A stretch of 64,000 nucleotides of DNA from Phytophthora colocasiae (lineage: Eukaryota > Oomycota > Peronosporomycetes > Peronosporales > Peronosporaceae). The stretch lies in assembly GCA_018806915.1 (NCBI GenBank), contig JAGKQI010000098.1, forward strand, positions 2,604,001 through 2,668,000, read 5' to 3'. Positions 51,792 to 56,724 of the stretch are shown here, piece after piece; positions within the stretch are counted from its first letter, which is position 1, and each line of letters begins with the position of its first letter. The position numbers and the translations under genes are program-made. The notes beneath the pieces were generated by a model that saw only the letters and a list, made by a program, of their open reading frames with translations, did not search any database and had not been told where the DNA came from.

Positions 51792-52880
51792 CTACTCTTG
51801 CCTATTCTTGCGTCTGTACCTCTCCAGCATCGTTGCATTACCTGAAGTGCCTCCCGTGTGGATGTACATGAGTTCCCGCTCAGTAGCGCCAAGCTGCGTA
51901 GTTTTTCCGTGATATGACACGATATCAGCAGTACAATTCCGTCCCAAAACCTCGTTGAGAACTCTTTCGTCCGAGAACAGAGTGTGCCAAGCGAAAGCGC
52001 CATACACGAGATCGAAGTCCACCTTGGTTTCTTGTAGCACCTCTTGGTACATGTCAAACTGCGGCCACCAGAGTCTCCCGAAGCGACTTTTCCTCTTAGG
52101 AATCAACACTCGAGGCAGCAATGCTGTATGAGGCTTCAGCATCGGATCCTCATTAATTAACTGCTGGAATTGCTGCTGCAAGTACTCAGCGTCACCGACA
52201 CACGGGACAGCGTACAACTTGATCTGTGGATGCAAATGTTGCGCCAAGTAAAGCGCTGTCGTCCCCGTACCACAAGGCAACACAACCGAGAACTGTTTGT
52301 CCGGCCATTGCGTCTGCACGTACTCGTTGATCTCTTCAGCCAAGAGTTTAACCCCATCTTGTGCTTCAGGAAAAGCTGCTCCTTGTGGCACATACAGACT
52401 CTTAAAACTCGAAGGAGGACGAATCTCTTCACTCAGAAACGCTGTAAAGTCGCGAGTACGAACCAGTTCATGATACACGTCCGGTTGAAGCTGTACATGA
52501 CGCATTCCGAGTGTCTGGGCCAGCTGTAGGTTCCCCTCCACTGGTTTCCTATCGTCCTTGAAACTCAACTCCCTACTGAAATACGTGAATGGCACATGAC
52601 GAGCATTGGCCAATTGAGCCAAAGCCAACATAGCGTTGCTCTGTGACCCACCAAAGCTGAACAAGTGCGTATCAGCGAAGAACTCGTCCCTCTGCTTGAC
52701 GAAATAATACATTTTGCGCATCTGGAATATGCACTGACATTAGACCAAATAGATAAGTAATCCCCTAAAGGCACTACCAACCTTATTGCCAGCTAGATGG
52801 AAGACATCATCTCTCTTGACATGCACTCTCTGTCCTCTGAACATCACTCTCGTCACAGGCGAATGAATCATTGACACCAT
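51792..52880 (-). CDS. PLP-dependent ACC deaminase / D-cysteine desulfhydrase family enzyme
   Basis: Two minus-strand exons (52782-52880 and 51792-52721) with a 60-bp phase-0 intron; 342 residues. VKRDDVFHLAGNK in exon 1 and MRKM at the start of exon 2 make the GNK-x-RK motif that holds the PLP-binding lysine. SFGGSQSNA is the next PLP-site motif and VLPCGTGTTALYLA the phosphate-binding loop; IHTGGTSGN lies near the C-terminus. The family deaminates 1-aminocyclopropane-1-carboxylate or D-cysteine. Which substrate is used cannot be told. If an ACC deaminase, it could affect plant ethylene. Start at 52880 gives MVSMIHSPVTRV. Confidence 0.8.
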
Positions 52881-53002: not shown

Positions 53003-55780
53003 ATGCGGCGTCTAAGCTCCAGAGGTGCGTATGCAATCTTTACCATTTACTTGATTTTTAGGTATTTAATTTGTGTGTCATAGGCGGCAAGAACTTCAGC
53101 CTCAAGAGCGAGGAGGACGTGGAGGAGCTCATGCAGACGCTCGTGGCCCAAATCCACGCCAAACTCAAGAGCGAACTCAATCTGCGAGAGATTTTCATCC
53201 CCAACTCCAAGGCGGAGGCGCGCTGTAGCATCTTCGTCTCACACAACTACGCGTCGTGTCCTAAGCTCTGCGTCTTCATGCAGCCTGGAGAAGGTTTGTC
53301 AGAATTATTTTTTATTTTTTTATTTTTTTATGTATTATTTTTTTTATATGATAGGGATGCAACCTGGTATGTGGAGTCGTACGATACATCCGAAGACTGG
53401 GTTTCAAGGCTCTATGATCCCGTACTTGAAGACGGCGATCCAAGGCGGGTACGGAGTGGTGATTCTAAACCCTAGCACCAATTTCTGCATGGTTAATGGT
53501 CATCGAGCCAAGATCCTGCACTCTTCTACACCTGAAGCGCACGTGTCGTATGTGTGGAAGAATTATATTGTGCCCAACGCGGCGCAGGAGATCAGCTTCA
53601 TCGTGCATGATAATGCTGGCGTCTTGTTGAAGACGTTTCTGTCCTCGTTCGGTGGACATGATCAGCAACGGATTGGTGGCATTGCCTTCATTGAATCAGC
53701 ACACCAGGTATCATCAGGAGACAGCAATGCAATGCGGGATTTACTGCGGGAGAAGGCCGTGAACTTTGAAGCCTCACCAGAACCAATGTTTACAGTCATT
53801 GGATCGTCCAAGGCTCGACTTGGATGCACGTCACTGTCGGTGGGACGCACTTCAGGTGAAGCGAACAACCGCGAGTGGACAGTTCACTCTGTGCAGACGT
53901 CAGCGTTCGTGTTCCTGCAGTCCATTGGCAGCGGGATTGAGGAATCACTGCATGCTATTCGTGCGACGTTCCCAAACAAACTCATTGTGACGGTGAATCG
54001 TGCACGTCTTACCGGACAGCCATACAACAATCCATTTGCAGTGGTGCAGTGCGCTGGGCAAAAGAAGGAAACTGTAGGCAGCCACAAGCACACAATGGAT
54101 CCCGAGTGGAACCAGACGTTCTCCTTCCCCGTCACATCCAGCGAAGCGAAGGTGGTCACTATCGTCAAGGACAGATCTTTCCCGATGAACACGTCGCTGG
54201 GTCAGGTGGTCGTGAGTATGAGTGAGGTGGGGCTCAACCGTGCCGACCGACGATGGTTCGCACTGCGGGATGAGAAGGTGCCAACGGCTCACGGTAATGG
54301 AGAAGTGGAGCTGACACTTGAGTGGGTACACGACACTTTCGTTGCTCGTTCCGATTCATTTATACGCGGGAACCGCATGCCGACACTGGAGGCTCAGCAG
54401 CGACCTCATAATGGCACTGGCGGTGGTGGTGACAACTGCTGTTATCTGTGCAAGACGACGTTTGTATTGCACCGACGTAGGTACTGCCGTATGTGCTTAC
54501 GTCTGGTTTGTACTTCTTGCTCCGATCGCTTGTTCCTTCCGGGATTCAGCGAACCGAAAAGGGTGTGTTCAGGTTGCTGTGATCTTCAAATGATGCTGCA
54601 CAATAAATTACCGCGTATGGGAGGCCCCAGCGGCCCAGGTTCTAAGGTTCCTTCTCAAGAGAAGCTGGATGAGCACGCACAGAGGATGGAGGCGATGCGG
54701 AAGCGTGAAGAAGCCGAGAAGCGGCCTCTGTCTATTAATGACTTCGATCTTCTTAAGGTTGTGGGCCGTGGAGCATTCGGTAAAGTGCTGCTGGTTCGCA
54801 AGAAAGAAGGCAAGAACTCTGGCCAGATTTACGCTATGAAAATCCTGGTCAAGTCGCACATTATCAAGAACGACCAGATTGAGAACACCAAGGCGGAGCA
54901 ACATATTCTAAAGGAGATCAGCCACCCGTACGTCGTGCGACTTCGGTACGCGTTCCAGAATGCCGACAAGCTGTATTTGATCATGGACTACTACCCTGGT
55001 GGCTCGATGTTCTATCACCTGCGCAAGTCCAAGCGATTCTCTGAAGAACGCACACGTTTGTACATGGCTCAACTGCTTACAGCTCTGATGCACTTGCACA
55101 GCAAACAAATCGCTTACCGAGATTTGAAACTGGAGAATATTCTGATGGATCCCAAGGGAAATATCGCCTTGACAGATTTCGGTTTGTCCAAGGAGGGGCA
55201 GATGGTCGAAGGTGCGATTCGTGCGTCTCAGTCGGACACAGGCATGAAAACCATTTGTGGTACGGCCGAGTACATGGCCCCGGAGCTGCTGCGCCATCAA
55301 CCGTACGGAAAAGTGGTCGATTGGTGGAGTTACGGTATTTTACTCTTTGAAATGCTCACGGGACGGACACCGTTCGTGGATCGCAACCGTCGGCAGATGT
55401 TCAAGAACATCATGCAGTCGGAGGTCATCTACCCTTCGCACATTTCACCCGTGGCGCGCTCTCTGATCTCCAAGTTGCTGAACCGCGATCCGGCTCGACG
55501 ACTCGGAGGCGGTCCCAATGGTGGACGCGACATCATGGCGCACCCGTTCTTCGAGGCCATCGACTGGGACAAGCTCATGCGTAGGGAGATCGAACCTCCA
55601 TTCGTCCCGGACGTCTCCAGTGTGGACGATATCACGAACGTGCCTGAGATGTTCCAGAACATGGCGGCTGTGGACTCTCCTGTGAACAACAAGAAAGGTG
55701 AAGGCCACCACTTCGACGATTTCACGTACCAAGAAGAAGGATACATTATGCGCGCGACGCACAACCCAAACGAGCACTAA
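53003..55780 (+). CDS. Arb2-C2-FYVE-AGC kinase fusion protein
   Basis: Three exons: 53003-53024, 53084-53293, 53355-55780; 885 residues. Domains in order: an Arb2/FAM172-like domain (about 10-275; CVFMQPGEGMQPGMWSR, GYGVVILNPS, VWKNYIVPNA); a C2 domain (about 285-400; KLIVTVNRARLTGQPYNNPF, DPEWNQTFSF); a FYVE-type zinc finger (about 440-485) with all eight cysteines in CxxC pairs and RRRYCRMC in place of the usual RHHCRxC; and an AGC kinase (about 542-812) with VVGRGAFGKV, AMK lysine 573, YRDLKLEN, DFG at 686-688 and TICGTAEYMAPE. The tail ends with the hydrophobic motif FDDFTY, as in S6K/AKT/SGK. The whole C2-FYVE-kinase part and most of Arb2 lie in one uninterrupted exon. Inferred: PI3P- or membrane-targeted kinase in TOR/PDK1-type signalling. 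Confidence 0.88.
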
Positions 55781-55823: not shown

Positions 55824-56724
55824 TCAGCACTTCTTCTGCTTCTTGTTGGATGTTTCTCCATCTTCCGATGGAAGTCGCTGGCGCTTAAGATGAGGAGGAA
55901 GACTGGGTCCGATGGCCATTTCTTCCTTCTCCTTCACTTCAGCTTGCTCCTTGTTGTTACGCAAGTGTGGTGGGAGTTGCGGTCCTATTGCTGCTGCAGG
56001 TTCTTCCTTAGCAGGAGGACGTTGAGGTCCAGCAGGTCCACGAGCAGTTCGAACACTTTTATCCTTGACAACACTGCGTTGAAGATGTCGTCCATATTCC
56101 TGCAACTGACGGCGGAAGCTCTCGTTGGGGTTGGCCACTGAACGTCGCTCGATCACGAAATACAGAGCCTGCTCGAAGCTCATTGAGCGCAGCTTCATCA
56201 GGTAAGCTACGACCATAGAGGACGAGCGACTCACTCCTTTATTGCAGTGCACGAGGATCCGACCTGCCATTGACGCATAGTAAAAGGGAAAATACAGATC
56301 ACACGCCGTACTTGGCCATCGTTAGCAACGTAACCACTAAAGTCTAAAACACAGCAACAGCCATGTGATACCATAGTACTTGGCTTGGTCCATGAAGGCG
56401 ATGCAGCCTTCCAACACCCCAGATATGTCCTCAGCCTTATTGTCGAAGATGGGACAGCGTCTGTACGTGAAGAGCTTGTCTTTCTCGAAGAAATTGGGCA
56501 CTCCAGCCACCGGATCCATCTTCTTAGGCGGTGTCACCTGCACGAGAACATATTATTTAGTCCAAAGTGCCCACAACTAGCGATATTCGGCTTCGTACAT
56601 TCAAGATGTGGGTGATACGCAGACGCTGAAGCAGCTCCTTGTCGCGCGCATGAGCCCGGGAGCCAAGGAACACGTGGTCGAGGATCTGCGAAGGCTCCTT
56701 GTCGTCGTCCCGAGCCATCTTCAT
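55824..56724 (-). CDS. Dual-specificity protein phosphatase
   Basis: Minus-strand exons are 56599-56724, 56372-56537 and 55824-56263; phases fit; 243 residues. The N-terminal QILDHVFLGSRAHARDKELL and ITHILNV are typical DUSP openings; the signature HCNKGVSRSSS (HCxxGxxRS, catalytic Cys) follows, then VVAYLMKLRSMSFEQAL. The catalytic acid would lie in the exon 2 segment before AKYYG. The C-terminal 90 residues are disordered, with a twice-used IGP-x-LPPHL motif and a basic KRQRLPSEDGETSNKKQKKC end that could be nuclear. Role: removing phosphate from Tyr and Ser/Thr, substrate unknown. It is tail-to-tail with the kinase gene, 43 bp apart. Confidence 0.85.

Follow-up and report, generated by a model that had tools for sequence, protein, structure and literature searches.

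Can a single oomycete polypeptide join an Arb2 domain, a C2 domain, a FYVE-type zinc finger and an AGC protein kinase, and what might such an enzyme do? The question is raised by a gene at positions 53003..55780 of a 64,000-nucleotide stretch of the Phytophthora colocasiae genome (GCA_018806915.1, contig JAGKQI010000098.1, positions 2,604,001 to 2,668,000; hereafter the window), for which an earlier note had proposed one protein carrying all four. That proposal holds. The gene product comprises 885 amino acids from three exons (splice enumeration reproduces the earlier model), the Pfam profiles PF22749 (Arb2), C2, FYVE and Pkinase all exceed their cut-offs on it, and the same four domains occur together in 19 of 34 database relatives, from Phytophthora to Saprolegnia. 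The explanation that we favour, with some reserve, is an intact-looking, oomycete-typical kinase of the Arb2-AGC family that would be activated by phosphorylation, gated or targeted by its Arb2 domain, and brought into contact with membranes by its C2 domain and finger. Domain order, conservation, kinase motifs, Arb2 fold, replaced nucleophile, non-canonical FYVE finger and paralogue set were read from sequence and predicted structure, and it is from these that we infer activation, the role of Arb2 and membrane contact. The gene is laid out as follows.

53003..53024 (+), exon 1, beginning MRRLSSR (splice enumeration; N-terminus matching relatives P0001, P0003, P0004 and P0006)
53084..53293 (+), exon 2, encoding the N-terminal portion of Arb2 (splice enumeration, relatives' models)
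53355..55780 (+), exon 3 including the stop codon: remaining Arb2, C2, finger, kinase and C-tail (open frame, splice enumeration)
53095..53785 (+), Arb2 PF22749, residues 12-221, with intron 53294-53354 inside the span (Pfam, fold matches, profile match, alignment)
53978..54265 (+), C2 domain, residues 286-381 (Pfam 43.5 bits, cut-off 22; fold comparison of a model from a relative)
54434..54583 (+), FYVE-like zinc finger, residues 438-487 (Pfam 28.5 bits)
54749..55552 (+), AGC kinase catalytic domain, residues 543-810 (Pfam, PDB matches)
55553..55777 (+), C-tail of the AGC kinase: DSP as turn motif (Ser852), FDDFTY as hydrophobic motif (Thr868; 55712-55729) (sequence)

The 34 relatives were recovered with the Arb2-C2 part as query and assessed through precomputed Pfam lists. 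Their named sources are all oomycetes: Phytophthora, Nothophytophthora, Bremia, Peronospora, Hyaloperonospora, 'Plas' (name incomplete), Globisporangium, Pythium, Albugo, Thraustotheca, Saprolegnia and Aphanomyces. The 15 without the complete set divide into eight without a kinase call (three of them also without FYVE), two without FYVE only, four without Arb2, and one PX-Arb2-kinase model.

The Pkinase profile matches the window protein with 238.4 bits (cut-off 31.7), and the AGC catalytic motifs are complete, with YRDxKxEN at residues 665-672, DFG at 684-689 and MAPE at 718; the landmark residues are Lys573, Asp667, Asp685 and the T-loop Thr710 (codon 55250-55252). Pkinase_C remains under its cut-off (15.2 against 20.9 bits), but the turn motif and the hydrophobic motif are nonetheless present, as DSP at residues 851-853 and as the FDDFTY reported earlier, located at 864-869. 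Among the relatives, KTICGTAEY is kept in 23 of 34 and HF(D/E)DF(T/S)(Y/F) in 28. By analogy with AKT, S6K and SGK, phosphorylation at Thr710, a PDK1-type site, and at Thr868 in the hydrophobic motif would activate the enzyme. The closest solved kinases are AKT2/RAC-beta, S6K1 and RSK1, with 311.6, 304.9 and 301.7 bits, scores too near each other to rank. Pfam scans of the window protein revealed neither a PH domain (E up to 1) nor a C1 domain, and identity with protein kinase C (PKC) was rejected on the missing C1.

Membrane contact would fall to the two modules in front of the kinase. Judged by eye against the usual pattern of Ca2+-binding domains, the C2 domain of 19 aligned relatives shows NNP or HNP in place of the Asp of SDP-type loops, along with one invariant Asp in loop 3. 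The finger of the window protein contains eight Cys, an RVC motif and, as had been observed, the variant signature RRRYCR (residues 451-456; 54473-54490); the sequence before its first Cys holds no WxxD. A finger is detected in 33 of the 34 relatives, reading RRRYCR in 18, RRRHCR in eight, RKRYCR in five and RKKYCR in two, never RHHCR. The first His of the motif is thus replaced by Arg or Lys in every one of the 33 fingers, and WxxD is absent from the 12 residues before the first Cys in all of them. We propose that C2 and the basic finger together contact membranes, probably without Ca2+ and not with classical specificity for phosphatidylinositol 3-phosphate (PI3P).

A rival explanation makes the protein an endosomal, PI3P-recruited kinase of the AKT/SGK3 kind, whose finger would bind PI3P despite its variant motif and work like the PX domain of SGK3. 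We consider this doubtful, at perhaps one chance in several. It draws on the strongly basic R(R/K)(R/K)(Y/H)CR retained in all 33 relatives' fingers, on the eight Cys and RVC of the window finger, and on the RRHHCR retained in a paralogue (L021), and it is opposed by the uniform loss of WxxD and of the first His described above. Localisation also speaks against it: five FYVE-AGC kinases, PsZFPK1-5, were reported from P. sojae in 2023, and a PsZFPK1-GFP fusion was cytoplasmic with its most intense signal in the nucleus, a pattern that the empty vector shared and that did not depend on the FYVE finger or the N-terminus (PMC10381902), though the finger of PsZFPK1, RRIPCS, diverges further. The finger motifs, with neither WxxD nor RHHCR, give no backing to the PI3P-based recruitment first suggested for this protein; PI3P-specific recruitment is possible, not favoured.

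What, then, does the Arb2 domain contribute? The N-terminal part is Arb2 by PF22749 (94.8 bits, cut-off 26.8) and by fold matches to the Arb2 regions of deacetylases, so the Arb2/FAM172-like assignment stands, but not through the family originally named for it, PF09757, which reaches 17.8 of the required 26.6 bits. Structural models of relatives were used for the fold comparison. The full-length P0006 model was poor overall (mean predicted local distance difference test score, pLDDT, 54) and its Foldseek list was filled by kinases; P0001, a relative whose gene model lacks the kinase, was modelled additionally (mean pLDDT 74.7). The predicted Arb2 parts match the alpha/beta-hydrolase-like fold of solved Arb2 domains, with histone-deacetylase entries on top and Clr3 first, and their structural alignments to four deacetylase entries have 12-17% identity. 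Sequence comparison of the Arb2 part alone with the PDB gave three matches (E 0.084-0.5), taken as chance, and a profile built from seven paralogues matched Clr3 (5ikk) at 2.2e-6 over profile positions 54-188, a partial domain.

The GxSxG elbow of hydrolases places the nucleophile column, which falls on Asp163 in the window protein. Across eight aligned paralogues this column holds Asp (window gene), Ser (L020, L021, L027), Gly (L023, L024), Ala (L025) and Arg (L026, whose open reading frame (ORF) held only the later part of Arb2), and 19 orthologues of the window gene have 16 Asp, two Glu and one Asn, as read from the alignment. An active hydrolase in the window protein was rejected on the Asp at this position, and because the nucleophile is replaced in several paralogues, serine-hydrolase catalysis is excluded as the shared task of these Arb2 domains. 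The deacetylase Arb2 domain has been described as inactive and as aiding protein contacts (PMC11878206), and FAM172A homodimerises, as found earlier for Hda1 and Clr3 (PMC10205598). Because the nucleophile is replaced, the Arb2 domain of deacetylases is described as inactive and these known proteins dimerise, Arb2 here is probably a docking or dimerising module, a pseudohydrolase platform that may gate or target the kinase.

The same kinship admits a second rival, in which Arb2 acts as a silencing adaptor and the kinase is brought to Argonaute or chromatin by analogy with FAM172A and AGO2. The fold shared with the Arb2 region of Clr3 and the direct binding of AGO2 by FAM172A (PMC10205598) are compatible with it, but Arb2 is paired here with lipid-type modules, and the literature searched (open-licence papers, mostly titles and beginnings of abstracts) yielded no link between an oomycete Arb2 kinase and small RNAs, so we rate it as improbable. 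No paper on FAM172A, Arb2 and hydrolase together was found either.

Some points have to be set against our preferred reading of a phospho-activated, Arb2-regulated, membrane-contacting kinase. The FYVE call barely clears its threshold (28.5 against 27.8 bits, a margin of 0.7 bit). The fold matches listed include no FYVE structure, an absence that shows nothing, the list being filled by Arb2, C2 and esterase-type matches. The published localisation of PsZFPK1-GFP makes simple recruitment to membranes less likely for that paralogue. Finally, Ser occupies the Arb2 nucleophile position in three of eight paralogues, and enzymatic activity is therefore still conceivable for some members.

The gene model itself rests on frame, splice signals and accord with relatives' models, which support both GT-AG introns (53025-53083 and 53294-53354); the MRRLSSR start is common to P0001, P0003, P0004 and P0006. 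Exon 3 (2,426 bp) carries some two thirds of Arb2 and the whole of C2, finger and kinase, in keeping with the statement that almost all of the protein lies in one 2.4-kb exon, except that exons 1 and 2 encode the first 78 or so residues, including a third of Arb2. Because all four domains occur in 19 of 34 relatives, the join is not an annotation artefact. Two genes or an annotation chimaera in place of a single polypeptide, for which the kinase calls missing from eight of 34 relatives' models (P0001-P0003 and P0007 included) might be cited, is scarcely credible and was rejected, given the single uninterrupted frame in the window across C2, finger, kinase and most of Arb2, the four-domain relatives, and the kinase C-tail fused straight on in P0001-P0003 and P0007, which indicates spurious introns. 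Such introns seem to have removed the kinase from some database models, and users of database models of these kinases should be aware that it can be lost in this way. Two unusual relatives, P0034 from Pythium insidiosum (PX-Arb2-kinase) and P0021 from Albugo laibachii (deaminase-Arb2-C2-FYVE-kinase), were put aside as probably merged gene models.

A six-frame, exon-by-exon search of the 92.5-Mb genome with PF22749 identified 11 matches in nine loci, and all nine sit in ORFs that also contain a kinase domain; no stand-alone Arb2 gene was found by it. PF09757 gave zero matches, missing the window gene as well, and 14 control genomes were without matches in both searches. Since L022 (G000:C1) and L023 (G000:C9) are near-identical copies on two contigs and the kinase frame of L022 is broken, we count eight distinct Arb2-kinase genes; the pair may reflect two haplotypes retained by the assembly, or else a recent duplication. 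The eight are arranged as follows.

Window gene: Arb2-C2-FYVE-kinase
L021: Arb2-FYVE-kinase, finger RRHHCR
L026 and L027: Arb2-FYVE-kinase, sub-cut-off fingers (25.5 and 19.7 against 27.8 bits)
L025, 1338-5801 (+), G000:C36: three PH stretches, a possible zinc ribbon (under cut-off), then Arb2 and kinase
L020, L023 and L024: Arb2-kinase

Where five FYVE-AGC kinases are reported for P. sojae, four with Arb2 were found here, two of them with sub-cut-off fingers, and no fifth turned up among the 30 kinase loci, which were scanned with Pfam in part or whole save for L050 and L057. Because the searches for relatives of the paralogues scored only those candidates that had the most words in common, they may have overlooked relatives beyond the oomycetes. 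Two paralogue genes have their closest named species in P. oleae (98%) and P. citrophthora (99%), one paralogue is 92% identical to the P. sojae protein P0038, and one search returned 31 matches, among them P0065, a FYVE protein without an Arb2 or kinase call.

To place these kinases, a tree was built from 40 kinase domains: 30 loci (of 121 kinase matches, window gene included), nine homologues and RAC-beta, with P0063 (truncated) and also L022 left out. Of the 17 Arb2-kinase rows, a figure that covers paralogues and orthologues alike, 14 fall into one branch (support 97/94), and the three L020-type rows (L040, the kinase of L020, with P0067 and P0100) stand beside it at an open fork. All 17 as one clade is not rejected by the approximately unbiased (AU) test (p-AU 0.245); the corresponding value for the FYVE-bearing rows as one clade is 0.081. 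Since 14 rows share a branch and the clade of 17 is not rejected, it is possible that Arb2 and kinase were joined once, long ago, and that the remaining modules were exchanged later. RAC-beta, the sole animal kinase included, falls outside the branch of Arb2 kinases with weak support (88/51). The window protein is likely an AKT/S6K-like kinase, as had been proposed, by similarity of the catalytic domain; the likeness does not extend to a specific link with AKT in the tree or to a PH domain.

Elsewhere in the genome, an AGC-type kinase ORF (L044:409-2535 (+), G000:C90) has a DEP domain scoring 49 bits and a C2 match of 26 bits (cut-off 22) in front of the kinase, and L033 and L035 (G000:C75) have kinase domains identical in the tree and lie about 110 kb apart on one contig. 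In the window, the ORF directly downstream of the kinase gene and convergent with it, 55824-56270 (-), reads HCNKGVSRS, which we take to be a dual-specificity-phosphatase-like signature. On the other side, the divergent ORF 51792-52721 (-), with its first ATG some 280 bp before the start of the kinase gene, resembles by eye a pyridoxal-phosphate (PLP)-dependent desulfhydrase or deaminase.

Parts of this architecture are already known. The 2010 account of P. infestans AGC kinases reported an N-terminal Arb2 domain in PITG_06776, and in no other kinase known at the time, and named orthologues from P. ramorum, P. sojae and H. arabidopsidis; it assigned Arb2 to two AGC kinases, FYVE to two and C2 to one, and usual PH or PX domains to six (PMC3019232). 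The opinion that no kinase combining such domains had been described was therefore wrong for Arb2 plus kinase, and the window protein, with N-terminal Arb2 and AGC kinase in one chain, fits the definition of the oomycete Arb2-AGC kinases given there. FYVE-AGC kinases are likewise on record (PMC10381902). No description of the complete Arb2-C2-FYVE-kinase string was found in the literature searched, and as far as we have seen the full architecture and its conservation, the Arb2-kinase count in one genome, the placement of every Arb2 locus in a kinase ORF, and the following reading of the PsZFPK1 N-terminus are new.

PsZFPK1 has the finger RRIPCS, T-loop T602 and a natural Ala at 766, and a version without residues 2-321 did not restore function (PMC10381902). 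The paralogue L027:2363-5329 (-), G000:C8, an Arb2-FYVE-AGC kinase, matches PsZFPK1 in three landmarks: the finger motif RRIPCS, a hydrophobic motif bearing Ala, and the 164-residue spacing between the T-loop site and that Ala. Its stretch aligned as Arb2 corresponds to about residues 20-334 in PsZFPK1 numbering, nearly all of which the deletion covers. Because the landmarks match and the deletion overlaps Arb2, L027, rather than PsZFPK1's own sequence, suggests that the essential N-terminal region is Arb2. PsZFPK4 (model 360424, P0038) carries PF22749 Arb2, FYVE and kinase in precomputed Pfam lists, so that PsZFPK1-5 include at least one Arb2 kinase and probably a second.

A bolder hypothesis is an oomycete AGC-kinase subfamily with Arb2, mostly lacking the hydrolase nucleophile, as common regulator and with FYVE-like, C2 and triple-PH modules interchangeable, in which Arb2 binds Argonaute or chromatin and couples membrane or nutrient signals to silencing. 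We hold this to be a long shot; its milder form, in which Arb2 regulates the kinase subfamily but has no tie to silencing, is close to an even call. If the explanation favoured at the outset is right, the published FYVE-AGC and Arb2-AGC kinases of oomycetes would overlap, with Arb2 as their common front end; the essential region of PsZFPK1 would gain a name and a testable job; and one could ask by what means a silencing-type pseudohydrolase controls a growth-type kinase where PH and PX are rare among AGC kinases.

Set beside known systems, the window protein resembles AKT/RAC, S6K and SGK3 in its catalytic domain, T-loop, and turn and hydrophobic motifs, but unlike AKT/RAC and SGK3 it has no PH or PX domain, with Arb2, C2 and the finger in front instead. 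With conventional PKC it shares C2 plus an AGC kinase; it differs in lacking C1, in having Arb2 and a FYVE-like finger, and in a C2 that seems poor in Ca2+-binding Asp. PITG_06776 is likewise an AGC kinase with N-terminal Arb2 and orthologues in other oomycetes, but the available portion of its description mentions Arb2 alone and not the full Arb2-C2-FYVE string, and it may be the orthologue either of the window gene or of one of its paralogues (PMC3019232). PsZFPK1-5 share the finger and AGC kinase, although Arb2 and C2 are unnamed in the accessible part of their report (PMC10381902), and PsZFPK1 has RRIPCS and a hydrophobic-motif Ala where the window protein has RRRYCR and Thr. The Arb2 domains of Clr3, Hda1 and FAM172A have the same alpha/beta-hydrolase-like fold as that predicted here, and the deacetylase Arb2 is likewise described as lacking the triad (PMC11878206), but in contrast to Clr3 and Hda1, the Arb2 of the window protein is joined to a kinase rather than to a deacetylase.
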